A stretch of 64,000 nucleotides of DNA, taken from contig CAIIXF020000011.1 of NCBI GenBank assembly GCA_903813345.2, positions 26,158,166 through 26,222,165 on the forward strand, in the 5' to 3' direction. How positions within the stretch are numbered: the stretch's first letter is position 1; every line of letters starts with the position of its first letter. Positions 1 through 18,928 of the stretch are shown in pieces. Under the pieces are notes generated by a model. That model saw only the letters and a program-made list of their open reading frames with translations. It did no database searches and was not told where the DNA came from. The position numbers and the translations under genes were made by a program. The DNA is from Owenia fusiformis (lineage: Eukaryota; Annelida; Polychaeta; Sabellida; Oweniidae).

Positions 1-987
1 TTAAATGATGATGCAGAAGACCAGATGACAGATGGCATGAACGAAATCCAATATGGCGCCATTAATACGTCAAGAGCATTAAGCAATGTAGAGATGAAAA
101 CACTAGATGACAAGTCCATGATTAGGAATGGTGGAAATCTGATGAACCAGAATCCAAGAACTGTCAACCAGTCTGAAGTAGATTTTTCAACTTACTTTTC
201 AGAAGTTGAGATTCGACTGACCAGAATTATCCTTCTGGCTGGTGTCATGAAATGTGGAACAGGCCCGATGACAACGCTTCTCAGCAGACACCCGGATGTC
301 AGAGAAACTGTTGATCTGCAAGTGTACTTAACGTATAATTTTGGTGTTCAGTGGTACTTAAAGAGGCTCCCAACAACCGTGAAAGGAAAAAGCGATTGGT
401 TGTTTTCAAGATGCACGAATTGTTTTGCAATAAAGAAAGCACCTGCTTTGGTAAACGTAATCCGTGAGATCACAGGGAAACGTTTTAAGATGTTGTTCAT
501 CGTCAGAAACCCAATTGACAGAGTTATATCCCACTATACACAGCTCATAAGTGACAATGCTACTGTTGCAACATTCGGGAAGTGGGTTCAGGAAATTCTA
601 GTGAACCCATACAACAGTTCCCTTTTACAAAAAAGCCGTTACGTTGAACATTTTGAATCTTGGTACTCTTTATTTGAAGAAAATGACATGCTTATCATTG
701 ATCACAAAGAATTTGTTAAGACGCCATGGCTGGTTATGCAAAAAGTAGAAAACTATTTATCCTTAGTTTCATACTTCACAGAAGACAAATTCATGCTCAG
801 TCAAAATAGCCAATACTATTGTATAAAGACTAAAGGTGAAATGGATGCATGCTCTCAGAATCTAGATCATAAAGGAAGGACACACATCACTGTAAGTGAA
901 CAGGATAGAAAACTTCTTCGAGATTATTTTCATGTATATAATGAACGCTTGTTTAAATTGTTAAACAGACGATTCGATTGGGATTGA
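1..987 (+). CDS. 3-OST-like sulfotransferase, paralogue A (5' end outside window)
   Basis: Predicted Golgi sulfotransferase that would move sulfate from PAPS to a sugar acceptor. The frame is open from base 1, so the anchor and true start lie upstream; the first in-window ATG at 25 is probably internal. Seen: a stem with the sequon in T-V-N-Q-S, the 5'-phosphosulfate loop MKCGTG, the 3'-phosphate motif RNPIDRVISHYTQ, a Y-x-E-H-F-E-S-W-Y stretch, a Cys pair around Y-Y-C-I...C-S, then KGRTH, and the end F-K-L-L-N-R-R-F-D-W-D. The order and the KGRTH block match the heparan sulfate 3-O-sulfotransferase (HS3ST) family, PF00685. Where HS3ST enzymes have N-E-V-H-F-F-D this protein has D-L-Q-V-Y-L-T, so the known catalytic Glu is absent. 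The closest relative in the window is paralogue B at 4162-5370. A likely AATAAA poly(A) signal lies near 1029. The family call is firm; substrate is unknown. Confidence 0.88.
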   Translation, partial: LNDDAEDQMTDGMNEIQYGAINTSRALSNVEMKTLDDKSMIRNGGNLMNQNPRTVNQSEVDFSTYFSEVEIRLTRIILLAGVMKCGTGPMTTLLSRHPDVRETVDLQVYLTYNFGVQWYLKRLPTTVKGKSDWLFSRCTNCFAIKKAPALVNVIREITGKRFKMLFIVRNPIDRVISHYTQLISDNATVATFGKWVQEILVNPYNSSLLQKSRYVEHFESWYSLFEENDMLIIDHKEFVKTPWLVMQKVENYLSLVSYFTEDKFMLSQNSQYYCIKTKGEMDACSQNLDHKGRTHITVSEQDRKLLRDYFHVYNERLFKLLNRRFDWD

Positions 988-1061
988 AAGGACCTTTGAA
1001 GTAAAATTATCATGTATCATTTTATCAAAATAAAATGTAGTTAAGCCTGAACACCGAAAAA

Positions 1062-1460
1062 TATAGGGTGTCTCAAAAATGTACCCAAATGTATATCAAC
1101 AGCGAAGATGAACCAATCAATATTTTCAGATATTTTTGCATGGTCATTTAGGCAATGCATATAAGTTTCAGCCCCAACACAACATTCTTAGTCCAGTCTT
1201 GCCCTTTTAATGTTCTAACTCTTTTTATACCACATGTTCAATGCAACCTCATTATATTTCGATGACAGACTGCATCCTTACTGCCACATTGTCCATCACA
1301 TTAAATAATGTTTCTGGTGGAATGTTTTGAATTTCTCTTCGGAAGTTGTTCTACAAGACTTCCTTAATTTAAAGAGCCATGTTTTATCCCAAGCCAAGAG
1401 AACTACAAGTTCAAGTTCTCTTGGCTTGGGATAAGCATAAACATGGCTCTTTAAATTACC
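1062..1460 (-). mobile_element. Mariner-like transposon remnant
   Basis: The left edge TATAGGGTGTCTCAAAAATG has the wording of mariner/Tc1-type inverted termini that start at a TA. On the minus strand, about 1350 to 1252 reads N-F-R-R-E-I-Q-N-I-P-P-E-T-L-F-N-V-M-D-N followed by a stop after V-I-E-I. This resembles the C-terminal region of mariner-family transposases (I-P-x-E-x-L-x-x-V-M-x-N). No intact transposase and no clear right terminus were seen, so this is a decayed copy just downstream of paralogue A. Confidence 0.5.
1367..1457. repeat. Near-perfect hairpin, arms about 38 bp
   Basis: The left arm runs from AATTTAAAGAGCCATG to CAAGCCAAGAGAACT. The right arm is its reverse complement apart from a few extra bases (GCTTAT versus TTAT), with a loop of only about 8 bases. 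The arms contain GCCAAGAGAACT / AGTTCTCTTGGC. The hairpin sits inside the mariner-like remnant; it may be a palindrome made when that element decayed, or a separate foldback insertion. Confidence 0.8.
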
Positions 1461-1515
1461 CAAGAGAAAACGTCTGGGGTGTTAAATCTGCTGAATAGGG
1501 ATGCCCTCACAAAGT

Positions 1516-2310
1516 CCTATCACACTAAATTAGTTCTCACTACGTTCTCGAAAACGGGCTTCAACTGTGTACGAACGTACTGGACATACTTAGAACCGTT
1601 TGGGGTCTATTTACAAACTTCATCGAACGTACTCGAACGGGTAGGTCCTCTAGAACTTAACATGCTCCAAATGTTCTCTTGGTCGTCACGTTCTACAATT
1701 AGAACGAGTGACAACCTACTAACGACGAACTGGACGTACTACGAACGGAACCGTCGTACTTCAATCCTACTAGGGACGCTTTTACAACGGGTTGAACTGT
1801 CTAAGGACGTATTGAGAACGAGGTAGAACTAATTACAAACGGGTTGAAACTGATTAAGAACGTATTTATCAAGGAGTAAGCAAAAATATAGCTATCACAC
1901 CAAGCAAGCTGCCACTGCGTTCTTCATAACTGGATTTAAACTGTGTGCGAACGGAATGAACGTAGCTACAACGTTCTACGGTCTGCTTACGAGCTTCATG
2001 GACTATCCCGGAGGGGGAATGTGATTTAGAATTTTGAATCGATTCAAAATTCGATGGCCACCATACCATTCTGTAATCAGGTCATAATGACCTTCTAGAC
2101 TAAGGTACGCGTTATACGACGTTGCACACCTACGTGGTACGACCTGAACGAACTGCGAATGAGATTGACGTATTGAAGACTGTCTATGAACGAATTAGCT
2201 AATTATTTTAGACATATTTCCCGACCACAGCCAGATTGAGCCCGTTTTACGACGTTTTCGTAGGACTGGCAAGAACGGGTAAGAGCTAGTTTGGTGTGAT
2301 AGGGGGGTTA
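1516..2310 (-). mobile_element. About 790-bp inverted-terminus element, copy 1
   Basis: Member of a family with ends reading CTATCACACCAAACTAGTT. This copy lies in reverse relative to the copies at 9614 and 10618: its left end (CCTATCACACTAAATTAGTT) is the complement of their right end, and its right end (AACTAGTTTGGTGTGATAG-type, here GAGCTAGTTTGGTGTGATAG) is the complement of their left end. A third terminus-like CTATCACACC occurs inside near 1893. The interior is rich in short degenerate words with CGTTC/GAACG and ACGTAC. It holds a perfect 24-bp palindrome at 2029-2052 and an AGGTCA-N3-TGACCT site at 2079-2093. No transposase is encoded, so it is a non-autonomous DNA element of unassigned superfamily. 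Confidence 0.75.
2079..2093. promoter_or_regulatory. AGGTCA-N3-TGACCT palindrome in element copy 1
   Basis: Perfect inverted hexamers with spacer TAA. This matches the consensus estrogen-response element form (inverted repeat spaced by 3) of nuclear receptors. The same site occurs in copies 2 and 3 with a different spacer. Regulatory use is not shown. Confidence 0.5.
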
Positions 2311-2743
2311 TACAGAGATATCGGACATTGAAGAAACTGCTAAAATGGGTATTTCGTGTGGTCCCTTGCTATAGGTGGATGGGCATAATGAATAAAAAAC
2401 AAACAATTCTTTTGCTTTAAGGAAGACTTGACTTCCCCGCCCTCTTTATTAACGGTATAATCCCTATACTCTTTAATCTGTGTTACAATTCTTATGTATA
2501 AATCAACAATCACAAATATATACTACATGTAGGTCGGCATGCATTATCATTTTTTGGCCAACAAGAACAATGTAAAGCCTTGATATATAAGACAAAGAAG
2601 CATGGTTGATAAGGGAAACTCTAATAAGGGAAATATATTTTCGCAAAATATCGTTAACTTCACAGAGTCGAAGTGAATCGCTTCTGTTAGGTCACGTTTC
2701 CTTTGAACTGTCAATCTTGGATTGCACTTTTTTGATTATTTGA

Positions 2744-3554
2744 ATATATCGGGTGTCCCAAAAAGTGAGACACTGTTTGACAAGTATTTTCTCAGAAATT
2801 GATAAAAAAAATTCACAGAAAATGTGAACAAAGAAGCCTGAGAGTATCATTAGCAAGTTGTAAAAATATAAGAAAGATCAAATACATTGAGTACTAAGAA
2901 ATTCAAAATAACATGTCAAAAAATCCCATACCAGAGCTCTGCGATGAAACCTTCATAGTGTTTGTGCCAACTATCAGGTGATAGGATCTGTCAATCAGTC
3001 AAAATAGCTTGTCTGTTTGTTATAGCCAATTAATTTGTTTCATTGTTCGAAAATATTCAAAATCCATTCATTCTCAAACTTTATTGGAGGAGAAGAGAGA
3101 AGTATTTTTGCATGGAATGGATTAATACATGTGACTTTTACATTGTAATTGGTTATTTTTATATACTGTCTTATATTCATTAATACTCATATAATATGGA
3201 ACCAATTTTTTACATATTCGTAGCACTAGTTAAAAAAACCGAAAGTGTTTCAAGTAAAGTTTTCAAGACCTTTAGCTCATATATTGCTGAGAAATTACTT
3301 CTCAAATTGGTTCCCCTTTTGTGGTACAAACGCTATGAAGTTCTTATTTTGTTGCTCCGGTATGGGATCTTTTGATATGCTATCTTGAATTTCTTATTAC
3401 TCACATGCTATGAACTCGATCTTTCTTATATTTTTGTAACTTGCTAACGATATTCCTGGACTACTTTGTACTAAATTTTAAGTGAATTTCGCTTATTTAT
3501 TGCCGAAAAAATACTTGACAAAATGTATCTCACTTTTGTTGGACACCCGATATA
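2744..3554. mobile_element. Foldback MITE with TATCGGGTGTCC ends
   Basis: The left end TATATCGGGTGTCCCAAAAA is mirrored by the right end ...GGACACCCGATATA, flush with TA on both sides. Similarity between the arms runs inward well over 200 bp: left 2866-2970 (GCAAGTTGTAAAAATATAAG, then ATCCCATACC) is matched in reverse complement at 3340-3450. No intact ORF. The TA-flanked terminus suggests a mariner/Tc1-derived non-autonomous element with long inverted arms. Confidence 0.8.
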
Positions 3555-3822
3555 AAGAAAAACATACATATCATAATTTGATAGGTTTAATATGTTACAT
3601 ATTGAAACGTACTGTAACATGGAATTTTAGAATGTCTCCAGTATTTTCTGGAAATCAGAGATTTTTGTTATCGGACTTCATTCATAGAAGCGCGTTAATG
3701 TCACGTGATTACATCCTCTGAGATTACCCTTTCTCTTTCGATTTAGCCAGGTTTATATCCCAATTCATTTTACTACTGTCTCATGTAACAATGGCTACTG
3801 TCACACCTCTCTGTTATATTTC

Positions 3823-3955
3823 ACAGGTGAGACCACGGATCTCAGCCAGACTCCTGCCATTGGTCTCAAGGCTCAATGAATTTACTCATTATTTTATTGA
3901 GCCTACCGCCAATGGGGACTGGATCTGACTCGGTATCCGTCGGTGATGCCCTGTA
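3823..3955. repeat. Imperfect inverted repeat
   Basis: Arms of about 55 bp around 3835-3890 and 3893-3950 pair with roughly three quarters identity by eye, sharing ACGGAT, CCATTGG and GGCTCAAT / ATTGAGCC. They flank a short AT-rich loop. It could be a degenerate foldback element or fold as RNA; no family is recognised. Confidence 0.5.
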
Positions 3956-4161
3956 ATCGTTCAAGCTAGTGAATCTAGATGTTGCAAGCTAGTGTATCTC
4001 AATATTAATTGGTTGTTTTGTCAAACACAAGAGTAAATGCGCAGTATTTACATGGTTTTGTGAATGGTATCTCGGGGGTGACTATACATATGTACTATAA
4101 TTCAGTTCAGAACCCCTACAGATTCAATTAATTTATGTTGCAACTAAAGAAAACGTTACAT

Positions 4162-5370
4162 TCACACCCAGTCGAATCGTTTGTTGAGTAATTTAAACAA
4201 TCGTTCATTGTACGGACGGAAATAGTCTCGAAGCAATGCTTTATCTTGTTCACTCACACTGACATGTGTCCTTCCTTTATTCTCTGGATTCTGAGTGCAT
4301 TCACTCATATCTGGACCTCTGGTTTTAAAACAATAATATGGGCCTGTTTGTCTGAGTAAGAAAGAATCTTCTGTAAAGAATGATTGCAGAGACAAATACT
4401 TTTCTATCTTTTGCATAGCCAGCCATGGCGTCCTTACAAATTCACTATGGTCTATAATGAGTATATCGTTTTCTTCGAAGAAATGGTACCAAGTCTCAAA
4501 ATGCTCCACGTATCTACTTTTCCTCAAAGGAGGACTGTTATCGGGATCAGCAAGAAGTTCACGTACCCATTGGCCAAATTCCGGAACACTAGCGTTGCCA
4601 CTCACTAGTTGGGTATAGTGTGAAATTAGCCTGTCAATTGGGTTTCTTACCAGGAAAATTAGCTTTAAATGCCTAACTGTGACCTCACGGATCATATTTA
4701 TTAATGCCGGTGCTCTTTTTGTCGCAAAACAGTTGGTACATCTTGATAGAAGCACTTGACTTTCATTGCTCTTTGCGAGCCGTTTTAAATACCACTGGAC
4801 ACCAAAGTTATAAGTGAAGTACACTTGGAGACCGACTGTGTCTATTACAGAAGGGTGTCTCTTGAGAAATGAACTCATCGGTCCCGTACCACATTTCATT
4901 ATACCAGCAATAAGTGCAATCCGTGTAGATCGAATTTCAACTTTTGAGAAATAATCAGAAACGTCAATCTGTGTTTCATTGCTTTTGGACCTAATTTTTT
5001 TACCGGTCCCGTCATCCATAAATAAATATCCTTCTTCGCCAAAATGTCTATAGTTGTTACTTCTTTCTAAAGTTTTGAGTTCCTCTTTAGTAAGGTTTCT
5101 AGAGTTACTAGAGACGATTTCTTTGATACGTTCAAGAGCATAAACATGGTTATCTATCCGACCAAGGCCAGCGTTTTTGACATCATCTTCGTTCAAAGTC
5201 ATACGAGGCTCCATGTAATTCGAGTCATTTGATGTGAAAATTCGATCATCCGATCTTGCTAAGAACATTTGATCCGAGTGGGCATGTTCACATTTTTGCG
5301 TTAATATTCTATACAAAAAGACAATGATAATTGTTAATCCTGAAACTAAGATAACCTCTCGTCGGCGCAT
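4162..5370 (-). CDS. 3-OST-like sulfotransferase, paralogue B
   Basis: Intronless minus-strand gene of 402 residues. I take the ATG at 5370 (M-R-R-R-E-V-I-L-V-S-G); the open frame extends three codons further upstream, but only to a TTG. A type II anchor lies at about residues 6-22, then a charged stem and the sulfotransferase domain from about residue 135. Seen: MKCGTG loop, RNPIDRLISHYTQ, Y-V-E-H-F-E-T-W-Y, a Cys pair (Y-Y-C-F...S-E-C), KGRTH, and the end N-E-R-L-F-K-L-L-N-K-R-F-D-W-V. The family catalytic E-x-H-F-F-D is G-L-Q-V-Y-F-T here. The stem sequon is N-E-T rather than N-Q-S. It is closest to paralogue A, from which it is inverted, with about 3.2 kb of transposon-rich DNA between them. 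Probable Golgi enzyme; acceptor unknown. Confidence 0.9.
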   Translation of the reverse strand: MRRREVILVSGLTIIIVFLYRILTQKCEHAHSDQMFLARSDDRIFTSNDSNYMEPRMTLNEDDVKNAGLGRIDNHVYALERIKEIVSSNSRNLTKEELKTLERSNNYRHFGEEGYLFMDDGTGKKIRSKSNETQIDVSDYFSKVEIRSTRIALIAGIMKCGTGPMSSFLKRHPSVIDTVGLQVYFTYNFGVQWYLKRLAKSNESQVLLSRCTNCFATKRAPALINMIREVTVRHLKLIFLVRNPIDRLISHYTQLVSGNASVPEFGQWVRELLADPDNSPPLRKSRYVEHFETWYHFFEENDILIIDHSEFVRTPWLAMQKIEKYLSLQSFFTEDSFLLRQTGPYYCFKTRGPDMSECTQNPENKGRTHVSVSEQDKALLRDYFRPYNERLFKLLNKRFDWV

Positions 5371-5678
5371 ATTTATCAATCTATTGTAACTGTTGTATGA
5401 ACATCACGTTTGAACTTTAAACTAAGTCGAACATGTCCAATCTTTTGTGTTGAATATTTACAGACCCACTAGTATTGGCATTTGGTATTTATTTATGATG
5501 ATTAGAAATGCAGGAATTTACTTGTTTTCTGTACTTTCCATAAAAAACTAAGATACTAAATCATTGATTACGGCGTGCTAAGTGCATTTATCAGATCTCG
5601 GAAGTCTAGTTTCAAACATATTGCTTTTTATTAATCGATTTAATTTATTGATTTACTTCACGAGAGATTGGCCGAAAT

Positions 5679-5943
5679 ACAGGGTGACACGAACGATAAA
5701 AAGATAACCCATGAACATTGTGAAAACGACGCAAAAATAAACCGATTGTCAGTACATGAAAGTCAAAAGCTGAAAAAGTTGGTATTTTCGAATTATGAAG
5801 AATCGATACCTATAGTTAAGGGGCAAAATTATTAATGTCATTGATAATGATATTTTATGAAGAAATAATAATGTAAATAAATCTTAAAAACAAAAAACAA
5901 CGAAACCTAAAATAATGGGTTGCGTGTTTAGTGTCACCCTGTA
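5679..5943. mobile_element. 265-bp MITE, TACAGGGTGACAC ends
   Basis: The left end TACAGGGTGACACG and the right end ...GTGTCACCCTGTA are inverted and include TA at each side, as expected for mariner/Tc1 target duplications. Subterminal pairing continues (AACCCAT / ATGGGTT). Too short to encode a transposase. A lone similar terminus, TACAGGGTGACCCG, occurs near 8967. Confidence 0.8.
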
Positions 5944-6199
5944 AATTAGCGGTTTTTGAAACATTCGATGTTGATGTTGACCGCGCATTTCAATTTTTCT
6001 GAAATAACTGTTGTGTTTGATTAGAGGCGGGCAACATTAAAGCAACCATACTTGAAAAGAATAACAAATCAAATCAAATGGGAAAAACAAAAACTCGATT
6101 TATTTTTTGAAAACAATGCTTTATTTTGTGCATTGAGGGTAAAGGTTAATTCTCATTTGGTAATTATTTATTTTGATGCTATTAGCGCGATGTCCCGAA

Positions 6200-6381
6200 T
6201 ACAGTAAGACCTGTGTATAGTGAACACCTAAGGAGCCACAAAAATGTGTTCACTGCATGTGTTCACAACAGAGAGTTGATCTTTTACAGATGTTAGTGGT
6301 ATATGTGCCTTTAAGGGGTGTTCACTCGACACATGTGTTCATTAGAGAGATAGAGATGTTCACAAGACAGGTTAAACTGTA
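6200..6381. mobile_element. About 180-bp pogo/Tigger-like MITE
   Basis: The ends are TACAGTAAGACCTG and CAGGTTAAACTGTA. The interior repeats GTGTTCACTA-type words followed by GAGAG. This resembles short pogo/Tigger derivatives with CAGTARAACCTG-type ends. A second copy lies at 58748-58921. The superfamily call rests only on terminus wording. Confidence 0.6.
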
Positions 6382-6735
6382 TTTTCTGAATCGGAATCCC
6401 ACCAAACTATAGGCATTGGCAGGTCAAGGAATATAGCCGATCGTTTGGAAATGACCTTTGATGGGGACTATGTTTAAACAATATATTATAAGCGATTAAA
6501 TGAAATGATTAATTATGATAATTGCAATTCTAATGGTAATCGACATCTTCTGGGCGTACGAATAAATGAATTATATTGTTTTTCATAAATTAAAATACAA
6601 ATGCACACATGTGCTAGATTTAAAGTTCAGCCTTTATGCAATCGAAATGAATTATAATTTGTTAATCGGTGAATCTCGTACATCATATTCGTGCACTTGA
6701 TTTAGATATTGAACATAAATTTATTTTATGAGACA

Positions 6736-7845
6736 ATGAAAAGAAAGGACATATTATCGGGAGCTTTATTTGGATTCCTTTTCATGAGCTACGCTGTGTA
6801 CGAAATGTTGACAATATTAGGAGACCAAGAAGAAGAATACGAACAAGAATATTCCCAGAATTCACAAGAAAACCAACCGGATATATATCGCAATGTTGCA
6901 TGGGACAATGATTCCCCATCCGAGTCTCGTATTAATGTTGGGTTTGAAGACGTAGGACATAGAAAATACGGCCGACCCGGATATGTGTTCGTCGGAAAGA
7001 AACATATGAATATGTATCCAAAAACAGTAAACCAATCTGAAGTAGATTTCACTAATTATTTCTCAAATGCTAAGCCAATAGACACGAATATAGTATTACT
7101 TGCTGGTGTAATGAAATGTGGCACTGGTACAGTGAAGAGTTTTATAAAGGAACATCCAAGCATTAAAGAAGCAGTTGGCCTGCAAGTGTTTTTTGCATAT
7201 AATTTCGGTATTCAATGGTATCTTAGAAGATTACCAAAATGTAAGGAAAATGAATGGGCATTCTCGCGATGCACAAACTGTTTTATGATCTCGGGTGCAC
7301 AGGGATTGGTTGAAAACATCAGTCAAATGACAAAGCGGCTGAAATTGATGTTTATTATACGAAATCCAGTTGATAGATTAGTATCACATTATACACAGTT
7401 ATATCTCGAGCATAATGACATTCCTCCATTTTTACAATGGGTTAAACAGGAAATGCTACATTCTGATCGTTCTGGGTCCATTAAGAGAACTATATACGTG
7501 GATCTTTTGAAGAATTGGTATAGGCTATTGGGAGAAGAGAATATTCTTGTACTAGAACATAACGAATTTGTAAATTCTCCTTGGATTTCCATGCAAAAGA
7601 TTGAACGCTATTTAGGCCTCGATCCATTTTTTACTGAAAACTCATTTTTACTAAGAAAAACTGGTAAATATTATTGCTATAAAACAAAGGGTCCAAGAAT
7701 GACGGAGTGTGCTCAAAATCCCGACGCCAAGGGACGCACACACGTGAACGTCACTGAACAGGAAAAGATATTTTTGAGAGAATATTTTCGACCTCACAAC
7801 GAACGGTTATTCACATTTTTGAACAGACGATTCGACTGGAATTAA
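6736..7845 (+). CDS. 3-OST-like sulfotransferase, paralogue C
   Basis: Intronless, 369 residues from the ATG at 6736 (M-K-R-K-D-I-L-S-G); the frame runs upstream only to a TTG at 6709. A hydrophobic anchor at about residues 7-27 is followed by a Glu-rich stem. Before the domain is K-T-V-N-Q-S-E-V-D-F-T-N-Y-F. Domain motifs: MKCGTGTVKSF, S-R-C-T-N-C-F, RNPVDRLVSHYTQ, Y-Y-C-Y-K...T-E-C, KGRTH, and the end F-N-R-R-F-D-W-N after P-H-N-E-R-L-F. The catalytic position reads G-L-Q-V-F-F-A instead of E-x-H-F-F-D. It groups by eye with D and E rather than A and B. An AATAAA sits just after the TAA stop, near 7861. Predicted Golgi PAPS-dependent sulfotransferase. Confidence 0.9.
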   Translation: MKRKDILSGALFGFLFMSYAVYEMLTILGDQEEEYEQEYSQNSQENQPDIYRNVAWDNDSPSESRINVGFEDVGHRKYGRPGYVFVGKKHMNMYPKTVNQSEVDFTNYFSNAKPIDTNIVLLAGVMKCGTGTVKSFIKEHPSIKEAVGLQVFFAYNFGIQWYLRRLPKCKENEWAFSRCTNCFMISGAQGLVENISQMTKRLKLMFIIRNPVDRLVSHYTQLYLEHNDIPPFLQWVKQEMLHSDRSGSIKRTIYVDLLKNWYRLLGEENILVLEHNEFVNSPWISMQKIERYLGLDPFFTENSFLLRKTGKYYCYKTKGPRMTECAQNPDAKGRTHVNVTEQEKIFLREYFRPHNERLFTFLNRRFDWN

Positions 7846-7939
7846 GATGTATTTACCAATAAAATAATTGTTATGTCACGTTTTTTGTACAAACATTCCA
7901 TTGTATTTTCTGTTTATAAAAGTTCACAGCTGCCCGATA

Positions 7940-8912
7940 TGGAATGTTTTCTGCTTCATTATTCGTATCTTACTATATGTATTAGTAAATTGAACTTCTG
8001 TACTTGTTAAATGCACATTTATGTTTGTAACTTGAGTACTTTCATTCATTGTTTGCCTTTTCTGTTCCTTAATCTATTTTGTTTCGTTAAAACGTATATA
8101 TGTATGTGTTTTATACTGAAATACATTCAAATCCTTAAACGTATTTGTTAGTGACACATTGTTTATCCGTATACAAATAAAATTAGTTCATTTTGTACCT
8201 TTGTCATTGTTTCTGCAAATATATTAATTTGATATCTACAAACTAAATGTCGAATTTATCAATGAATCAGTACTAGCCTTGGCATTTTTATTTTTTAATT
8301 GTCGAATTTATTTTCGTAACAAGGTAATATATTTTCGTAAAAGTGCACATTTATTGTTCGTAAATATTGTCATTTGTATTCGTAAATTGCACTTTTATAT
8401 TCGTTTTTCATTGGTTTATTAAGATCACGTGATCATTCTCAACGAGACATGGTCAACCCATGGTCAAAATCATCACCCCCTCCCCCACACATGTCATGTC
8501 ACGTGACCTTTGCCTCGAGACTTGCAGTTTATATTCGTTAATTCACATTTGTATTCGTAAACTCACATTTATATTCGTAAAGTTTCATTTTATCATTCGC
8601 TAATGTACGAATATTCCTTTGCTTTCTGCAACAATTCATGGGTAATATGCACGATTATTATTGGTAAAAATACATCTCCTCGATAAAATAATAGGCAATT
8701 TTGTTGGAAATTACGAATTGTAAGCTGTAGTTGGCGAACAATAAATTGTTAGTTACAAATATGTCTAGTCCTTACAAACATGAAATGCACCCGAATCTAG
8801 TATATGTTTGTTTATTTGATACATCATATTTGTATTTGTAATTTGGGAATTTTATTTGTAAATGTTACATTAATATTCGTATAAGGGAATTTATTCCAAA
8901 CGAATAATGAAG
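7940..8912. repeat. Degenerate TATTCGTAA-rich repeat block
   Basis: Short words of the type ACATTTATATTCGTAA recur many times at irregular spacing of about 25 bp or more, most densely at 8310-8400 and 8525-8605. The edges share an inverted CTGCTTCATTATTCGT (about 7949) and ACGAATAATGAAGCAG (about 8901), which suggests one foldback or tandem-repeat-bearing element. No coding potential was seen. Confidence 0.55.
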
Positions 8913-9613
8913 CAGTTATGACGCTATAGCCCGAAGGTACAAAGAAATCATTTCCACAAACCATTTACAGGGTGACCCGAAAATGCAACCTAAGAAGATT
9001 CCATCAAAATTGTTATTCATAAAGTAGATGGTTGTATTTGTGGATCACATTGTTAAGTGGGTCGTGTTTCACAAAGTACACGAAATCCTAGTTCTATGAC
9101 TGAATCAACTGTGTCTTTACAGAATTCCTTCTTTTAATTCTTACTTTGATTCAAAGACAGACGGGTTTGCACCTGGATAGCTGATATGCATTTGTATTTG
9201 TAATATTGGATCATATTATAAATTCGCAATGAAGTCCATTTACTTAGGTAATAACAGATTATTAGGAAACCGATTCGATGTTGAGAAATATTGTTTTTAT
9301 ACATTTGTAACGGTATATATTTGCAAATTGTAATTCATGCCATATTTTAAAGGAAAATCACATTAAGTGACTTTGCTAGACAATGTTTTTATAACTTTAT
9401 TTACATTTTAAACAACTTTTAAGATTCCCACCAGTTTATCCTTTTCTGCGACCAGAGGCCCCAGATGTGTCTATATTCAATATAAAACTGGGCGTGGCAT
9501 TCCCCCATCGGATCCAATATGAATAATTTACTGTAAGAGATAACACAACTAAATGCCATAACATACAAACAATCTGTCTACCAGAGAAAGATTTGTGGAC
9601 GACATGTTTTGCT

Positions 9614-10424
9614 AACCCCCCTATCACACCAAACTAGTTCTTACCCGTTCTTGCCAGTCCTACGAAAACGTCGTAAAACGGGCTCAATCTGGCTGTGGTC
9701 GGGAAATATGTCTGAAATAATTAGCTTCTTCGTTCTTAAACAGTCTTCAATACGTCCATCTCGTTCGCAGTTCGTTCAGGTCGCACCTCGTCGGTGTGCA
9801 ACGTAGTAGAACGCGTCCCTTAATCTAGAAGGTCAACATGACCTGATTACAGAACGGCATGGTCGCCATCGAATTTTGAATCGATTCAAAATTCTAAAAT
9901 CACGTCCCGTCTGAGAACGTTCATAAAGTTCGTAAATAGACCTTAGAAAGTTGCAGCTACGTTCATTCCGTTCGCACACAGTTTAAAACCAGTTTTGGAG
10001 AACGCAGTTGCAACTTGTTCGGTGTGATAGCTATATTTTTGCTAACTCGTTCATAAGCAGTGTTAAATACGTTCTTAATCAGTTTAAACCCGTTTGCAAT
10101 TAGTTCTACCTCGTTCTAAACACGTCCTTAGACAGTTCAACTCGTTGTTAAAACGTCTCTAGTAGGATTGAAGTACGACGGTTTCGTTCGTAGTACGTCC
10201 AGCTCGTCGTTAGTACGTTTTCACTCGTTCTAATTGTAGAACGTGACGACCACGAGAACATTTTGAGCATTGTCTGAGTTCTAGAGGACCTACCCGTTCG
10301 AGTACGTTCGATGAAGTTTGTAAATAGATCCCAAACGGTTCTTAGTAGGTCCAGTCCGTTCGTACACAGTTGAAGCCCGTTTTCGAGAACGTAGTGAGAA
10401 CTAGTTTGGTGTGATAGTAGGGTT
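9614..10424 (+). mobile_element. About 800-bp inverted-terminus element, copy 2
   Basis: The left end is AACCCCCCTATCACACCAAA and the right end mirrors it (...TTTGGTGTGATAGTAGGGTT). An internal terminus-like GTGTGATAG at 10022-10030 splits the unit into about 410 and 390 bp, so it may be a dimer or a nested pair. The 24-bp palindrome is at 9871-9894 and AGGTCA-ACA-TGACCT at 9830-9844. The interior is a mosaic of CGTTC/ACGTCC words; the open frames across it are not genes. Confidence 0.78.
9830..9844. promoter_or_regulatory. AGGTCA-ACA-TGACCT palindrome in element copy 2
   Basis: Perfect nuclear-receptor-type inverted hexamers with a 3-base spacer, 27 bp before the 24-bp palindrome of the same element. 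Function is not shown. Confidence 0.5.
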
Positions 10425-10617
10425 ACATACCCCAGTATGTCATCCTGTCAGTCAAAAAAGTTTGAATCAAAACTCCCCACGAAAATCAAAATATCTCACC
10501 TGTTGAAGACGCCATCTATAGAAAATGTCAAAAAATGTCATTCTGATTTTGACAGATGGAGGCGGGTCAAAACGTGCCCGAACGTACCCGAACGGGTAGG
10601 TCCTACAGAAGTTACTG

Positions 10618-11410
10618 TATCACACCAAACTAGTTCTTACCCGTTCTTGCCAGTCCTACGAAAACGTCGTAAAACGGGCTCAATCTGGCTGTGGTCGGGA
10701 AATATGTATGAAATAATTAGCTTCTTCGTTCTTAAACAGTCTTCAATACGTTCATCTCGTTCGCAGTTCGTTCAGGTCGCACCACGTCGGTGTGCAACGT
10801 CGTATGACGCGTCCCTTAGTCTAGAAGGTCAACATGACCTGATTACAGAACGGTATGGTCGCCATCGAATTTTGAATCGATTCAAAATTCTAAAATCACA
10901 TTCCCGTCTAAGAACGTTCATAAAGTTCGTAGAAAGTTGCAGCTACGTTCATTTAGTTCGCACACAGTTTAAAACCAGTTTTGAAGAACGCAGTGGCAAC
11001 TTGTTTGGTGTGATAGCTATATTTTTGCTAACTCGTTCATAAGCAGTGTTAAATTCGTTCTTAATCAGTTTAAACCCGTTTGCAATTAGTTCTACCTCGT
11101 TCTCAACACGTCCTCAGACAGTTCAACTCGTTGTTAAAACGTCCCTAGTAGGATTGAAGTACGACGGTTCTGTTCGTAGTACGTCCAGCTCGTCGTTAGT
11201 ACGTTGTCACTCGTTCTAATTGTAGAACGTGACGACCACGAGAACATTTTGAGCATTGTCTGAGTTCTAGAGGACCTACCCGTTCGAGTACGTTCGAGTA
11301 AGTTTGTAAATAGATCCCAAGCGGTTCTAAGTACGTCCAGTCCGTTCGTACACAGCTGAAGCCCGTTTTCGAGAACGTAGTGAGAACTAGTTTGGTGTGA
11401 TAGTAGGGTT
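10618..11410 (+). mobile_element. About 790-bp inverted-terminus element, copy 3
   Basis: Direct-oriented neighbour of copy 2, separated by about 190 bp that itself contains a short family fragment (about 10567-10610). It starts TATCACACCAAACTAGTTC and ends AACTAGTTTGGTGTGATAGT. Most of its length is very similar to copy 2, with small deletions. Internal terminus at about 11004-11012, 24-bp palindrome at 10867-10890, and AGGTCA-ACA-TGACCT at 10826-10840. A 201-codon open frame crosses the region but follows the repeat, not a gene. Confidence 0.78.
10826..10840. promoter_or_regulatory. AGGTCA-ACA-TGACCT palindrome in element copy 3
   Basis: Same perfect inverted hexamers as in copy 2, at the same distance from the central palindrome. 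Function is not shown. Confidence 0.5.
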
Positions 11411-11429
11411 AGAGCATGGTCAAAATTTT

Positions 11430-11823
11430 CTGGTCGTCGTCATGTTCTGCATTCAGAACGAGTGACAACGTACTACAGACGAAATGGACGCACTGCGAAC
11501 CGAACTGTCGTATTTCAGTCTTACTAGGGACGTTTTTAGAACGAGTTGAACTGTCTTGCGACGTATTGAGAACGAGATAGAACTAATTGCAAACGGATTT
11601 AAACTGATTAATGACGTATTGAAGACTGTTTATGAACAAGCAAGCAAAGTATAGCTATCACACCAAACTAGTTGCCACTGCGTTCTTCAAAACGTTGCTG
11701 AGGTTTTAAATTGTGTGCGAACGGAATGAACGTAGTAGCTGCAACTTTCTACGGTTGATTTACGACCTTCATAGACGTGCTCGAACGGGGAGGTGATTCA
11801 AGATGGCGACCATACCGTTATGT
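11430..11823 (-). mobile_element. Inverted-terminus element, copy 4 (fragment)
   Basis: Reverse-oriented and truncated. It begins inside the unit (CATTCAGAACGAGTGACAAC), passes the internal terminus CTATCACACCAAACTAGTTG near 11657, and stops after GCGACCATACCGTTATG. Relative to copy 1 the 24-bp palindrome is missing: GTGATT joins directly to CAAGATGGC. The AGGTCA site is also absent. Confidence 0.65.
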
Positions 11824-12156
11824 AAATATCAACGTACTTCTGGTGTTTTTTACTTCGATTCTTAAAAACGTTTTTTTCGTTTCAATTTGGGCACTCTCTG
11901 TTGCTTGTTTATCCAACTCCTTTGGAGAAGGTAATCATTATTATTCTGATACCACAGTTTGCATAGAATTCATTAGTATGCATCAAGTAGTTTTTGGAAA
12001 TAAAACGTTTTCTCAAATTCGTGAAGAGAACGTGATTCGCGAATACTTGACGATTACCTGGTATTTCACATTTAAGAGTTGGAATAAGATCGTCAATAGT
12101 GGCTCGATTGTCAAGAAAGGAAGCAAGTTGTAAAATAAATTCAATGTGCTAAATAA

Positions 12157-12738
12157 TACAGGGTGGTCAAAAAATGGAAACCATGTCGCCATTTCCTCAT
12201 ATCTTTGTCATTTTAGAAAATTACTCCCTGATATTTAGCACATTTATACATCATTCAATTTCCTACCGGCCTACCATATTTCATGACCATCAAATTGATA
12301 GTCACAATGTTACAGCACTTTAAACAACATGCTCCAGTGGCCCATATTGCACTTTCGGCAAACTTGCACCTATCATCCAAAATGTCCCTACCTAACTTCA
12401 ACCTGTGGTGATACACCAAAAAAGTGTACGAGAATAACCCCAAGACAACTGCAGACCTCATAAAGCAGATCATCCATGTCACTCAGGCCACACATGCTGA
12501 AAAATGTAGTCAGATCATTGACAACCTGTTCAGATTTGCCAATAGCGCGATGGTGGCCACACCGGGGCATCTTGTTCAAAGTGCTGTACTGCACTGTAAC
12601 TATCAATCTGATGGTCATGAAATATGGTTAACTGGTAGGAAATTGAATGTTGTACATATGTGTCTTTCAGGGAATAATTACCCAAAATGACAAAGATATG
12701 AGGAAAAGGCAGGGTTTCCATTTTTTGACCACCCTGTA
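12157..12738 (+). mobile_element. Mariner-derived foldback element with transposase remnant
   Basis: The ends TACAGGGTGGTCAAAAAATG and its complement ...GACCACCCTGTA include a TA on each side. The inverted arms extend about 190 bp inward (CATATTTCATGACCATCA at about 12277 matches TGATGGTCATGAAATATG at about 12610). The plus strand from about 12424 reads V-Y-E-N-N-P-K-T-T-A-D-L-I-K-Q, then S-Q-I-I-D-N-L, resembling the C-terminal Y-x-x-x-P-x-T-x-x-x-L-K and D-N-F region of mariner transposases. The left arm looks like an inverted copy of the right end, so it is a rearranged non-autonomous derivative. Confidence 0.8.
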
Positions 12739-15700
12739 GAACAATAATGATCACTTTACCTTTTAGATTCTTACAAACAAGGTAACTGTACATAATATTT
12801 TATGAATTTCATTCTAATTGGCATCAACTTACGACTATCACCATTACCATCACCCACAATCACCCTAATTTTTACACCAAAGAGTGCCAGTGTAACAACC
12901 GGGGGTCACACTCGCCTAGCCGCGACGTAATATAAAATTACGAGATGTTAAATATACTTGACATTTCGGTGGTAGTGTATGGCCTGGACTAGGGAGCGTG
13001 TTGGTTGTTAAGAAATAATCTACTCTTTACTGACAACTTACTGTCACACTGATCTCAATAATAACAAAAAATATAATTTGAATTGAAATACATATATTGC
13101 GTAATCAACTATAAGTATGAAATATGTACAATGAGTTTTTTACAATGAAATTAAGGTCTTTCAGATGGCTTATCAAACAAGGTACTGTTAATAAAACAGT
13201 TTTTCAATCTTATTATCAATCTGACCTTTAATAGATAATACACACAACTACTACATGTACATGTAGATGCTCCACAACACCAGTGCCACCTTTTGGCAAA
13301 TATTCAAACTGATAAAAGTACACACATGGCTATGAATATCTATTTTTAACTAAAACCTTGCAAAATTAGTATGCTACCTGAAGCTGGTAATATTCACTGC
13401 ACAAAATGAGACATAATTATGAATATATATCTGATTGGAATCAACGATAGCAACTAAGAAATGATGTAGATTCTCAAAGTTTGCAAAATTGACTTAGCCG
13501 TCTATTTCTGTACAAAACTAACTTCCTTACCCTATTCAACTTGATTTATCTTATCTTAGGCCCTTTACTGCTAATAGAATCATATCCCATCCTATCTTAG
13601 GACCTTAAGTCCTACATTTGAGACGATTTTAATCCGCACGATATAAAATAAATGTCAACCTAAATTCTCCATGTGCGCCTCCTAAACGCTTTTCTAAGAC
13701 GTGCTCTGATTGGCTAATCTAAACTAGGCCTAAGTTTTTTGCACCAAATTCAAAAGTTATAAAAATCCTCGCCAACCTTACAATTAATTGAAATACCAAT
13801 AATTACATTAACAGATATATGAAATAATTTAACTGGGCATGAAATATGAAAAGTAACAACCCAGTGTTGTTACACCAGTTATAGATGGCTTAGGCTAGGA
13901 AAATTAACGGAGGCCAAAAAAGTAATGCAAAAAGTACTGTGAAAAACACAGAGAAGGGGGGGGGGCAAATTGACCTTTGGTACTGCAGACATAAGGGTTA
14001 AATGAATCTTTCAATAAAACTGTCGTTATTTTCTGACATTATGACTGACTACAAATTCATTGAACTAATATTGTCATCACTTCTTGTGTGTTTTGAATTT
14101 TTTTGACTCATGATTATGGAAGAGTATCGAAATGGAACCGTGTGAGCCAATCTTTCGTGGTGGCCAAACTGCCCTAATACGTCAGTTCCGCTGAAAAGAA
14201 AAAAGAAGTTTTAAAAGATTAATGTAGTCCCAACACAACTGACGAGTCAGTAAGCTAATATGTAGGTACAGTTGTCATCTTTTTGCAATGATTACATGCC
14301 ATTTCTTCTGAAAATGCGTTTATTTGGGTTATCTGAAGGAAAATTTCGAGTCAAGTGGCGTATTAATCTTGACGTCATTTTTGTGAATTTCAATTTCTGT
14401 CGGCAGAGAGAGGGGGTAGTGTCACGATTGACCAATTATTTCAAAAAGTAGATGTTTGACCCCTTTTGAGTTTAGTGTCAAAATGTAGCTTAGACATTGC
14501 TTTCGAACCTCAGATAGGCCAGTGGGACCACATAAATCCATATCTCGAGGTATGAAATCAGGCGTTTGCCTATTTGCTCATTGACTAGTATGGTGGCGAG
14601 TCTACTATCCTTACTCGGTTTGTTTATTTCGTGGTATGAGGAAAGTAGTTCTATTTAAAACCCTGTTTGGGGACTTCAATGGTATACTAGAACATCAACT
14701 TTGGATAGAATTCTCTAATTTGCAGGCATATAATGCTCAGAATAACTGGGAAACGTGAGGTTAACAGTGAACGGCAAATCTTTGGGATTATTTTCTGCGG
14801 ATGGATGACCTTGGTTGTGGTGAATTGGTCAATGTACATAAACATGATGACGTTTTGGTACTCCAATTATGTAAGAGAGCAGAACGTTTGATTTTCGTGA
14901 GATATTTTTGTTGAACTCTTTTAGACATGAAGGAGAGATGTGTTGCTGTATTTCTCTGAAATTCTTTAAAAACCGATGGGCTGCGATTTGAGAAATTCTG
15001 ATTTGAACTTTGTCAATTTAACATGCATCTCAATGGTACAAAAAGTAAGGAGAGTTCTACCGGCGTAAATTAGGGTCTTGCCGGTGTGACTGCTTGTAAA
15101 ACAAATATTTTGTCAATTTTGATTGGTTCCGTGAAGATCACCACGGACATGACACACCACAAAGAAATAGAAAAAGTATTTTGTACCCAACTTGGAAGCC
15201 GAAGATGCCAGACAACCCGAGTTTCTATTTACGATGCAAAGAACATTGAAAATGTTCTTGGACTTATCAAAGAGCTCGTTGTTCAGAATTGTTAAAATGT
15301 TTGCAGCATCACTTGTGAAATATGCACAAGCATTCACTAAATGAAATATTTGTACAATATCCCTCTGAAATTACTCACAAATGATTAAATCATGACTTGC
15401 TTGTTTGTTAATAATTTTCAAATACAGCTTTCTGAACTCGTTTTTGAACGATTTGCTCCGACAATGTGTCTAGACTGAAAAGTTGATTTCTCTAATTTAT
15501 ATGAACCCTGTTATCGCTTTTGCTATTTAGAGGGTTATCAACCTATATTAGTACGTATTCATTTCTTGTGTCAAATAACACTATCTGATTATCTGGATTT
15601 TGATTAATTACGCAGTGAATGATGTAAAAATACCAGCATAACAATATGTAAAATTGAAATTCCCAATAAGCCTGTTGCATTTGTTAGTTTAAAATAATTA

Positions 15701-16090
15701 CTATTATTTCGTTTGAAGATCAATGTTCATGTGTCTATACCAAATAAATCGGTTAAATATTTATGATTCGGAAAGTCTCCGATTGAGTCTGTTAAATTGA
15801 CGTTTCAAAAATGATTTCACATATTTCACAATAGCTATTCGATACTTATTTCTTATCTGCAAATTTATGTTCAGATCTAGATTGAGTGCTGTCATAATTT
15901 ATGTCTGTCTTCATCAATACGTCAGTACTGAAATTGTGATTTGTTTTAAGGACAGGTGTCGAGGTTTGACAAACTTTAAAAGCAGTTTATGAAATAAATC
16001 ATATTGTTTAATTAAATATTTCAAGCTTGGGACGTAACAAAAAAATAGAAGTGAACATTTTCAAGTTTACCTATACGTGATTCATTCCAG
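12739..16090. other. Intergenic, no gene seen
   Basis: AT-rich DNA without a supportable coding region. A short inverted pair (GTAACAACCGGGGGTCACAC near 12893 and GAGCGTGTTGGTTGTTA near 12997) suggests a small degraded element. About 25 bases at 15183-15210 (CCCAACTTGGAAGCCGAAGATGC) recur with one change at 23945 in an intron of the CHST15-like gene. Just before paralogue D, ATTCATTCCAG/AGGCAAGG at 16080-16098 looks like a splice acceptor, so D may have a 5'-UTR exon further upstream. Confidence 0.5.
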
Positions 16091-16098
16091 AGGCAAGG

Positions 16099-17223
16099 AT
16101 GAAGAGGAAATATATGTGCGCTATGGTGACAATGTTTGGACTAACTTTGATGAGTATTGTAGTACACTACATTACATTTGGTGTGTCAAAACGTAATGAT
16201 ATTGGATTAACATATTGCAATATCACATTGCACGACGAACATGCTTACGTCACTACACGAAGTGCTTCAGACGAAGAAACGTCTACAAGCACGTACGTTA
16301 ATTCCGAAAATGTAACAGAGGAAAAGAGACGCACAAAATACGGCGAATCGTGGTACGTGCATTCAGGAACCCGAAGTGTGAACATTTTTCCGAAAACAGT
16401 AAATAAATCAGAGGTGGATTTTTCTAACTATTTCTTCGACGCCGAAGTAAAGGAAATGAATTTAGTAATACTAGGTGGGGTAATGAAATGTGGAACTGGC
16501 ACATTGACAACCTTCTTGCAAGAACACCCATCCATCAGAGCAGCAATTGGACTGCAAGTGTTCTTCACGTATAATTTCGGTATCCAATGGTATTTAAAGC
16601 GATTACCGAAATGTGGAGACAACGAATGGGCCTTCTCACGATGCACAGGTTGTTTTACGAATACTTACTCTTTAAGTTTAATTAACTACATTAACGAATT
16701 ATCAGGAAAACGACTGAAACTTATTTTCATTATCCGGAGCCCAATTGAACGATTAATATCACATTATACACAATTGAGACTCGGTAGCAAAACAGAATTT
16801 TCATCGTTTGGACATTGGATGAAAGAACAACTTATAGATAGAACCTATAGTAGCGCACTTTCCAAAACAAAATACATTGATTTTTTTCCTTTGTGGTATA
16901 AAACATTTGGAGGAAAGAACATCCTTGTATTAGAACATGAAGAATTCGTTAATACGCCATGGATTGCAATGCAAAGGGTCGAACAACATTTAGGTCTCAA
17001 TCCATTTTTCAATGAAAGTTCTTTTTTACTTCAAAATTCAGGTAAATATTATTGCTATAAATCAAAGGGTCCACAAATGAAGGAGTGTACCCATAATCCC
17101 GATAACAAGGGCCGTACTCATTTTAACATCACCGAAGATGACCGGTCATTTCTGAGAGAGTTTGTTCGACCTTACAATGAGCGATTATTCAAATTCCTAA
17201 ACAGGCGTTACAACTGGGAATGA
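16099..17223 (+). CDS. 3-OST-like sulfotransferase, paralogue D
   Basis: Intronless coding sequence, 374 residues, ATG at 16099 (M-K-R-K-Y-M-C-A-M-V). Anchor at about residues 6-25, Thr/Ser/Glu-rich stem, then K-T-V-N-K-S-E-V-D-F-S-N-Y-F. Domain motifs: MKCGTGTLTTF, S-R-C-T-G-C-F, RSPIERLISHYTQ, Y-Y-C-Y-K...K-E-C, KGRTH, and the end F-L-N-R-R-Y-N-W-E. The usual catalytic E-x-H-F-F-D is replaced by G-L-Q-V-F-F-T. In the C-T-N-C motif the Asn is Gly here. It lies 544 bp upstream of E in the same direction and is E's closest relative, pointing to recent tandem duplication. A probable splice acceptor directly before the ATG suggests a noncoding first exon. Confidence 0.9.
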   Translation: MKRKYMCAMVTMFGLTLMSIVVHYITFGVSKRNDIGLTYCNITLHDEHAYVTTRSASDEETSTSTYVNSENVTEEKRRTKYGESWYVHSGTRSVNIFPKTVNKSEVDFSNYFFDAEVKEMNLVILGGVMKCGTGTLTTFLQEHPSIRAAIGLQVFFTYNFGIQWYLKRLPKCGDNEWAFSRCTGCFTNTYSLSLINYINELSGKRLKLIFIIRSPIERLISHYTQLRLGSKTEFSSFGHWMKEQLIDRTYSSALSKTKYIDFFPLWYKTFGGKNILVLEHEEFVNTPWIAMQRVEQHLGLNPFFNESSFLLQNSGKYYCYKSKGPQMKECTHNPDNKGRTHFNITEDDRSFLREFVRPYNERLFKFLNRRYNWE

Positions 17224-17767
17224 TAATATTTGGCCTATGATACACGGGTCACCTGAATGTTTTTGGTGTTGTGTGTACCACTATTAGCCTATATGTCTTC
17301 ATCGTTATTCCACTACACGTGCAAATGATCGAACAATATAAACATCCGTGTATTGGATAAAAGAGCATTCGAAAAGCCAAATTCCCAAAGAATCAACACC
17401 AAATTAAAAAAAGTTACAACACATCAAGGACACATTTTGAATATTTAAAGAATACTTTGGTTTATATAATTGTTATACCTAATTCAAATAATGCATGAGC
17501 TTAGCCTTGGAGTAATCTCATGTACAATCCAAAACTTCACACTGAACAAATCCCTACCATTATTCAGAAAGATAAAGCTTCCCATTTATAATTATTAATT
17601 AAAACATTTGTACGATCTGTGTATACTTCTGGAAAATCAGATAAACGATATATGCCTTTGATTAAATCGATTCAATTAAATATCTTTGACCGTTTCAAGA
17701 ACACGTGTGATAAGTTTACAAGTTTATTACTCACCTATTGAATGTACACAAAACAAAGCAGAAAATC

Positions 17768-18928
17768 ATGAGGAGACGGTACATTGTCGCAATTTGGCTT
17801 GTTCTGGGTTTGACTCTAATGACTATTTTAATGTATAATATATTTGGTGTGTCAAAACTTAGTAACATGAAAACAACATTTGGTGTGTCAAAACGTAATA
17901 ACACGAAAACGACAGATTGCAATTGTATTAAAATAAGGACTCCAGACGAACCTACCAACATAACCTCTCGTGATACAAAAGAAGAAAAAATGTCTACACA
18001 CAAAGAAAATACAGACACCAATAAAGCAGCGGAACAGAGACATTATGGTGAACCAGGTTATGTCTTTGTAGGAACCAAACGTATGAATATGTTTCCGAAA
18101 ACAGTAAATCAATCCGATTTAGATTTTTCAAATTATTTTTCTGACGCCGAAGTGAAGAAAAGAAATTTAGTATTACTAGGAGGTGTAATGAAATGTGGAA
18201 CTGGTACAATGAAAACTTTCTTGAAAGAACATCCATCCATCAGAGACGCAGTTGGATTACAAGTATTCTTCACGTATAATTTTGGTATACAATGGTATCT
18301 AAAGAGATTACCGAAATGTAAAGAGAACGAATGGGCATTCACACGATGCACAAACTGTTTTATGAATACTGATTCATTGAGTTTGATAAACAATATTAAC
18401 GAATTAATAGGTAAACGGCTGAAACTTCTATTTATCATTAGAAACCCAGTTGAGCGAATGATATCACATTACACACAGTTAAAAGCAGGTAACAAAACAC
18501 TACTCCCACCAATTGGACATTGGATCAAAGAACAGATAAGCAATCCAAATACAAGTGGGGCGCTTCAGAAGACAAGATATATAGATTACTTTCCCGTTTG
18601 GTATAGAATGGTCGGAGACAAAAACATATTGGTATTAGAACACGAAGAATTCGTCAATACGCCATGGATTGCAATGCAAAGGGTCGAAAAACATTTAGGT
18701 CTCAATCCATTTTTCAATGAAAATTCTTTTCTACTGAGAAAAGCTGGTAAATATTATTGCTACAAAACAAAAGGCCCACAGATGGAAGAATGTTCCCATA
18801 ATCCTAACAGCAAGGGGCGTATTCATGTTGACATTACCGAAAAAGAGCGCACAATTCTGAGAGATTATTTTCGACCTTTCAATGAACGATTATTCAAGTT
18901 TCTAAATGTGCGTTACAAATGGGAATGA
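17768..18928 (+). CDS. 3-OST-like sulfotransferase, paralogue E
   Basis: Intronless, 386 residues from the ATG at 17768 (M-R-R-R-Y-I-V-A-I-W); the frame extends upstream only to a TTG at 17738. Anchor at about 5-25. The stem contains a tandem 12-residue duplication (FGVSKLSNMKTT then FGVSKRNNTKTT, residues 26-49; bases 17843-17914). Sequon N-Q-S at 114-116; 5' loop MKCGTGTM at 141-148; G-L-Q-V-F-F-T at 163-169 where HS3ST enzymes carry the catalytic E-x-H-F-F-D; C-T-N-C at 194-197; RNPVERMISHYTQ at 225-237; Cys 331 and 342; KGR at 349-351. Predicted Golgi PAPS sulfotransferase of unknown acceptor. AATAAA-type signals occur about 370 bp downstream, near 19303. Confidence 0.9.
   Translation: MRRRYIVAIWLVLGLTLMTILMYNIFGVSKLSNMKTTFGVSKRNNTKTTDCNCIKIRTPDEPTNITSRDTKEEKMSTHKENTDTNKAAEQRHYGEPGYVFVGTKRMNMFPKTVNQSDLDFSNYFSDAEVKKRNLVLLGGVMKCGTGTMKTFLKEHPSIRDAVGLQVFFTYNFGIQWYLKRLPKCKENEWAFTRCTNCFMNTDSLSLINNINELIGKRLKLLFIIRNPVERMISHYTQLKAGNKTLLPPIGHWIKEQISNPNTSGALQKTRYIDYFPVWYRMVGDKNILVLEHEEFVNTPWIAMQRVEKHLGLNPFFNENSFLLRKAGKYYCYKTKGPQMEECSHNPNSKGRIHVDITEKERTILRDYFRPFNERLFKFLNVRYKWE

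Follow-up and report, generated by a model that had tools for sequence, protein, structure and literature searches.

A five-gene array of 3-OST-like sulfotransferases

The window analysed here, a stretch of 64,000 nucleotides from the annelid Owenia fusiformis (contig CAIIXF020000011.1, positions 26,158,166 to 26,222,165 of the forward strand, assembly GCA_903813345.2), begins with five single-exon open reading frames (ORFs) that resemble heparan sulfate 3-O-sulfotransferases (3-OSTs). These genes, W1 to W5, lie within window bases 1-18928, none of the five has an internal stop, and stop to stop they occupy 1-987 (+), 4162-5403 (-), 6706-7845 (+), 16081-17223 (+) and 17714-18928 (+), W1 being complete once upstream sequence is added (Table 1). 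All five match Pfam Sulfotransfer_1 (PF00685) with 32.6-48.7 bits against a curated cut-off of 22. Their N-termini consist of a short basic stretch followed by a hydrophobic segment (best 19-residue Kyte-Doolittle mean 1.7-2.8), a predicted layout as in type II Golgi membrane proteins. Only sulfotransferase families passed the Pfam cut-offs, and W1-W5 carry no fused N-deacetylase domain of the type found in N-deacetylase/N-sulfotransferases (NDSTs). Further copies of W1-W5 were found neither in the window nor in the 8 kb upstream of it (tblastn, E <= 1e-3).

The donor site for 3'-phosphoadenosine 5'-phosphosulfate (PAPS) is retained as the earlier note on this DNA had described, with MKCGTG and R[NS]Px[DE]R...SHY each present in 5/5 genes; KGR, on the acceptor side, is likewise present in 5/5. 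The catalytic loop is not: where 3-OSTs have E-x-H-F-F-D, every copy reads [GD]LQV[FY][FL][TA], and the loop is 3-4 residues shorter. Like the solved 3-OST-1, 3-OST-3A1 and 3-OST-5 (PDB 3uan/1zrh, 1t8t/6xl8 and 3bd9), all five genes keep the PAPS-site residues Lys162, Arg243 and Ser251 in a MAFFT alignment, as well as Gln255, Lys368, Arg370 and the Cys351/Cys363 pair; His372 is also kept in 5/5 (numbering of 3-OST-3 as in passages of PMC8341778, unless W5 numbering is stated). In contrast to these enzymes, they have lost Glu184, His186, Asp189 and the acceptor-binding Arg166, which is Gly throughout, and have exchanged Lys215 for Arg (a conservative change), Tyr219 for Cys and Asp252 for His, again in 5/5. 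The replacement of Glu, His and Asp proposed in the earlier note thus holds, but the last four changes, which alter the active site further, had been left out there. According to passages of the 3-OST-3 study, Arg166 binds the neighbouring uronate carboxylate, and the mutants K162A, R166E, E184Q, H186F, D189N, K215A, K368A, R370E, K161A and Q255A have less than 1% activity (PMC8341778); among these ten positions, the window genes deviate at K161, R166, E184, H186, D189 and K215.

The shortened loop allows two gap placements. HMMER pairwise alignments, which covered W2 and W3, set Leu and Val at Glu90 and His92 when W3 is aligned to 3-OST-1, while Gln and Phe/Tyr take the Glu and His positions when W3 or W2 is aligned to 3-OST-3 and when all five are aligned with MAFFT. 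Neither placement puts Glu or His at the catalytic Glu/His positions of the window genes, and the same MAFFT alignment recovered both residues in 4/4 canonical rows and in 28/28 rows of a second group described below. The sole invariant His between the two PAPS motifs of W1-W5 follows the first helix and is also present in canonical 3-OSTs.

Table 1. Positions of the five sulfotransferase-like genes in the window and of the active-site motifs in W5
Feature	Position	Strand	Remarks
W1, 3-OST-like	1..987	+	Window edge cuts 5' end; 382-aa open frame; 373 aa from first Met with upstream sequence
W2, 3-OST-like	4162..5370	-	402 aa, first Met at 5370
W3, 3-OST-like	6736..7845	+	369 aa from first Met
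W4, 3-OST-like	16099..17223	+	374 aa from first Met
W5, 3-OST-like	17768..18928	+	386 aa from first Met; luminal domain modelled
W5 5'-phosphosulfate loop MKCGTG	18188..18205	+	Lys162 kept, Arg166 to Gly
W5 LQVFF where 3-OST has catalytic E-x-H-F-F	18257..18271	+	
W5 RCTNCF (CxxC) where 3-OST has K-T-P-x-Y-F	18344..18361	+	Lys215 to Arg, Tyr219 to Cys
W5 3'-phosphate motif RNPVERMISHYTQ	18440..18478	+	Arg243, Ser251, Gln255 kept; Asp252 to His
W5 KGR	18812..18820	+	Acceptor-side Lys368, Arg370 kept

The same loss across the genome

W1-W5 are part of a derived clade of 3-OST-like sulfotransferases, predicted to be type II membrane proteins. Searching the 498-Mb genome (twelve contigs of 32-62 Mb sum to about 478 Mb) at the protein level gave at least 65 matches, five of them the window genes, and the stretches of all 60 others were retrieved. 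The catalytic-loop loss is common to 17 genes beyond the array, which brings the clade to 22 members; the loss noted earlier is therefore real in all five genes but not specific to the array. One outside member (L016) lies on the contig of the array about 10.6 Mb away, the other 16 are on different contigs, and identity of the 17 to W5 is only 24-28%. Common to the clade and specific to it is Arg-x(2-3)-Cys-[FY] where canonical enzymes have Lys-Thr-Pro-x-Tyr-Phe, with Lys215 changed to Arg and Tyr219 to Cys in 22/22 members and a CxxC in 16/22. Lys162, Arg243, Ser251, Gln255, Lys368 and Arg370 are invariant in the MAFFT alignment (22/22), and the C-terminal Cys pair (Cys351, Cys363) is present in sequence in all 22. 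Position 252, on the other hand, is His, Gly or Glu in six members each, Asp in two, and Ile and Ala in one each. W5 had no NCBIfam match; hits to four NCBIfam families occurred in the 22-member clade, each family matching a single member. The animal sequences compared were those of this genome and of the PDB.

A scan for the spacing pattern [ED]-x-x-[FYW][FYW], independent of the MAFFT alignment, found it in 0/22 clade members, 34/36 other 3-OST-like loci (L001-L055 minus the 17 clade members and minus L032 and L039, which have no readable segment) and 20/21 bacterial relatives. L014 failed although it keeps its Glu (NEVNIF), and the fragment L055, whose loop is GPTSFF, passed only through a chance DSYYW; the total stays at 34/36 whichever way these two are scored. 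Three loci stand outside the counts, with E-x-H-F-F visible by eye in L101 and L103 and L102 not reaching the loop, and L056-L078 and L104-L107 are likewise outside all counts. L042 (TVCYF) and L055 also have no catalytic Glu and are outside the counts of the 22-gene clade; L042 groups with L026 outside the clade in the tree built without motif columns, and L055 is in no tree. Within this genome, the loss of Glu may have happened on more than one occasion.

In a tree of 56 rows from which the three motif regions had been removed, the branch that sets off the 22 received an ultrafast bootstrap (UFBoot) of 100 and an approximate likelihood-ratio test (SH-aLRT) value of 99 and occurred in 200/200 bootstrap trees. 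An earlier quick tree with all columns gave the same 22-member grouping (SH-aLRT 99); L014, L025, L032, L039, L049 and L055 were excluded from both of these trees. When rooted on 17 bacterial proteins, with 17 of the 30 rows grouped with the second group (L026 included), the 22 (98/97) nested among animal genes, and their nearest neighbours were the four canonical 3-OSTs and L026 (92/86). Because of long bacterial branches and a warning printed by the program, this root is less certain than the clade itself. The position of the clade beside canonical 3-OSTs thus points to a single loss of Glu on the way to the clade, before the five-gene array arose, in agreement with the claim of the earlier note that the change is older than the array.

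The bacterial relatives, 21 in number (L080-L100, identity 21-30%), came from one scan of genome contigs; they have the same PAPS motifs as the window genes but, as the scan above indicates, keep the spaced acid in all except one. A bacterial origin was rejected, with the 17 bacterial relatives in the rooted tree grouping together and separately from the animal genes (L088, L095, L097 and L099 were left out), and so was a viral origin, with one scan of viral contigs using the five window proteins confirming no relative (19 pattern stretches).

Elsewhere in the genome a second 3-OST-like group has expanded, with single-exon open frames (28 rows among L019-L054; L014, L025, L026, L032, L039, L042, L049 and L055 are outside these counts). 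Its pattern is the opposite of that in the window clade: the catalytic-loop Glu and His are kept in 28/28, whereas Cys replaces the 3'-phosphate Arg243 in 28/28. His stands at the Gln255 position in 19/28, and Arg166 is lost in 27/28. In the bacteria-rooted tree this group (16 rows used) is not part of the branch that unites the clade with canonical 3-OSTs.

Fold and selection

The best solved sequence relatives of W3, W2 and a profile of the 22 clade rows were 3-OST-1, 3-OST-3A1 and 3-OST-5, followed by NDST1. An AlphaFold2 model of the W5 luminal domain, computed from an alignment of 18 rows (the five window proteins and 13 of the 21 bacterial ones), reached a predicted local distance difference test score (pLDDT) of 76.8 and a predicted template modelling score (pTM) of 0.77. 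Its top Foldseek match was 3-OST-3 (E 1.5e-12, template modelling score 0.69 by query and 0.79 by target), ahead of 3-OST-1 (3.0e-11), 3-OST-5 (1.8e-10) and NDST1 (8ccy, 3.4e-10). The N-sulfotransferase domain of NDST (PDB 1nst, 8ccy) hence has its fold in common with the W5 model but is a weaker match than 3-OST, and NDST differs further in its fused deacetylase domain. The proposed base His of NDST1 presumably sits on the 3'-phosphate helix at Ser+4, whereas in W1-W5 the residues at Ser+1 and Ser+4 are His and Gln. Passages of the NDST1 work name His716 as the proposed base and the PAPS-loop Lys as the proposed catalytic acid (PMC3733922).

Ratios of nonsynonymous to synonymous substitution (dN/dS, Nei-Gojobori) were 0.19 for W1-W2, 0.26 for W3-W4, 0.17 for W3-W5 and 0.25 for W4-W5, the other six of the ten pairs being saturated and only W4-W5 being comfortably measurable (synonymous divergence, dS, 0.87). 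Selection in the measurable pairs (4/10) is purifying, and the copies differ by synonymous codons at LQV, RCTxC and SHYTQ. The altered loop has thus been maintained, as the earlier note had supposed, and the spacing scan detected no rightly spaced Glu or Asp substitute.

Surroundings of the array

Between the genes of the array lies a dispersed repeat of about 800 bp, with copies at 1517-2310, 9622-10425 and 10618-11411 (mutual identity 89.6-95.0%) and at least 39 near-full-length copies of 95-96% identity elsewhere in the genome (best 40 of 2,251 candidates scored, query copy included). It is probably a mobile element of unknown kind. Two odd ORFs at 1455-1826 and 10148-11439 were considered as extra gene copies and rejected, since they lie inside or overlap this repeat.

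Beyond the array, 22372-24239 (+) contains the apparent exons of a second sulfotransferase gene, one of them with a KEWHWW stretch. Among its four exon candidates, 23994-24236 scored above the Pfam Sulfotransfer_1 cut-off, 23173-23463 matched Sulfotransfer_3 below cut-off, and the KEWHWW candidate at 22372-22686 had no Pfam match. This is probably a second sulfotransferase, and we take it to resemble CHST15. A single-exon protein of 532 amino acids follows at 29922-31520 (+), with a nucleotide-diphospho-sugar transferase domain (PF03407, E 4.5e-25). Given the probable second sulfotransferase and this glycosyltransferase in the same window, the array stands among genes that look glycan-modifying. 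Further on, ORFs at 36924-46569 (-) resemble the exons of a gene for an acidic secreted protein rich in dibasic sites, e.g. a neuropeptide or granin precursor; the two that were scanned against Pfam gave nothing above cut-off.

The annelid Alvinella, which lives in tubes, has an excess of carbohydrate sulfotransferases, with CHST15 among the over-represented families, and the authors of that work bring up sulfated glycosaminoglycans in connection with tube formation (passages of PMC12403961). As in the present genome, sulfotransferases are numerous in this tube-building annelid; the same passages mention neither 3-OST nor catalytic residues. A link between the array and tubes is a conjecture.

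Active enzymes with a changed base or PAPS-binding pseudoenzymes

With moderate confidence, we read the window genes and their clade as active Golgi sulfotransferases with a changed base and a changed acceptor. The proteins would still bind PAPS and transfer sulfate, but their acceptor would be a different glycan, probably an anionic one that may belong to a secreted matrix or a tube, and the acceptor group would be activated by another residue or need little activation. A review describes Glu, elsewhere His, as the residue that takes the acceptor proton as catalytic base in 3-OST-1 and in the NDST1 sulfotransferase domain, and assigns to the PAPS-loop Lys of polysaccharide sulfotransferases the stabilisation of the transition state (passages of PMC11625862). 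The most plausible substitute base in the window genes would be the His that replaces Asp252 in the 3'-phosphate helix, one turn before Gln255; another candidate is the invariant Cys215 (W5 stop-to-stop numbering, Tyr219 column). Since position 252 is Glu, Asp, Gly, Ala, Ile or His elsewhere in the clade, the clade would have to use more than one substitute. The 3-OST-like genes of this genome do not keep their donor site as a matter of course, as the Cys at Arg243 in all 28 rows of the second group indicates, and the unvarying Lys162, Arg243 and Ser251 of the 22 thus argue for continued use of PAPS. This invariance leans towards active enzymes and proves nothing. The loss of Arg166 would fit a changed acceptor, and expansion to 22 genes would likewise fit acceptor diversification.

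Several observations weigh against such activity. The single changes E184Q, H186F and D189N each leave less than 1% activity in 3-OST-3, according to passages of the mutant study (PMC8341778), His252 is scarce outside the five genes and so does not supply a clade-wide substitute base, and we infer the side-chain positions at the active site from alignments. Loss of Arg166 in 27/28 members of the Glu-keeping second group means that this change is not specific evidence for a new acceptor, and an acceptor in the matrix is a conjecture. Purifying selection, finally, suits a pseudoenzyme equally well.

A strong rival, possible if the less probable of the two, is accordingly that catalysis was lost once and that the proteins persisted as conserved binders of PAPS or of its product 3'-phosphoadenosine 5'-phosphate (PAP), i.e. 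as glycan-binding or regulatory Golgi proteins such as partners of active sulfotransferases or PAP/PAPS sensors. A loss of the Glu motif a single time at the base of the clade speaks for this reading, the effect of changing Glu184, His186 or Asp189 alone in 3-OST-3 agrees with it (passages of PMC8341778), and so does selection on the fold, the donor site and the Lys/Arg pair. However, the transition-state Lys162, needed more for chemistry than for binding, is invariant in 22/22 members, as are Arg243 and Ser251, and twenty-two diverged copies are in our judgement many for a structural role. Sulfuryl transfer without Glu in which the invariant Arg-x(2-3)-Cys would lie at the active site and serve as base, redox switch or nucleophile (through an S-sulfocysteine intermediate) appears improbable.

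Relaxed duplicates on the way to pseudogenes, as a tandem array with a dispersed repeat between its copies and with key residues gone might suggest, are already disfavoured and very unlikely, given intact frames in 5/5 (369-402 amino acids from the first Met), dN/dS of 0.17-0.26 in the four measurable of ten pairs, and identical losses in 22/22 clade members while other residues are invariant. Equally improbable is an intact Glu or Glu-His nearby that was misaligned: the short loop with its competing gap placements leaves room for one, and the MAFFT column of Glu184 is acidic in 3/22 (Glu in L007 and L027, Asp in L016) and that of His186 is Glu in 2/22 (L004, L012), none of them a window gene, but the spacing scan, independent of that alignment, was negative throughout the clade, and the search for such residues, which the earlier note had named as what would overturn its claim, found between the two PAPS motifs of the window genes no Asp or Glu common to all five and no invariant His beyond the one mentioned above.

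In the literature, covered mostly through titles and abstract openings in a weak search with subscription journals thinly represented, we found no report of a 3-OST-like family without its Glu. A clade of 22 genes that lacks this residue while its donor site is invariant offers a natural test of two possibilities, a base that the fold itself cannot do without and a base that is required just for the acceptor normally used. The second group, which has its Glu but carries Cys at the position of the 3'-phosphate Arg, provides the opposite case in the same animal. Naming such genes heparan sulfate 3-O-sulfotransferases from a sequence match may therefore be wrong.

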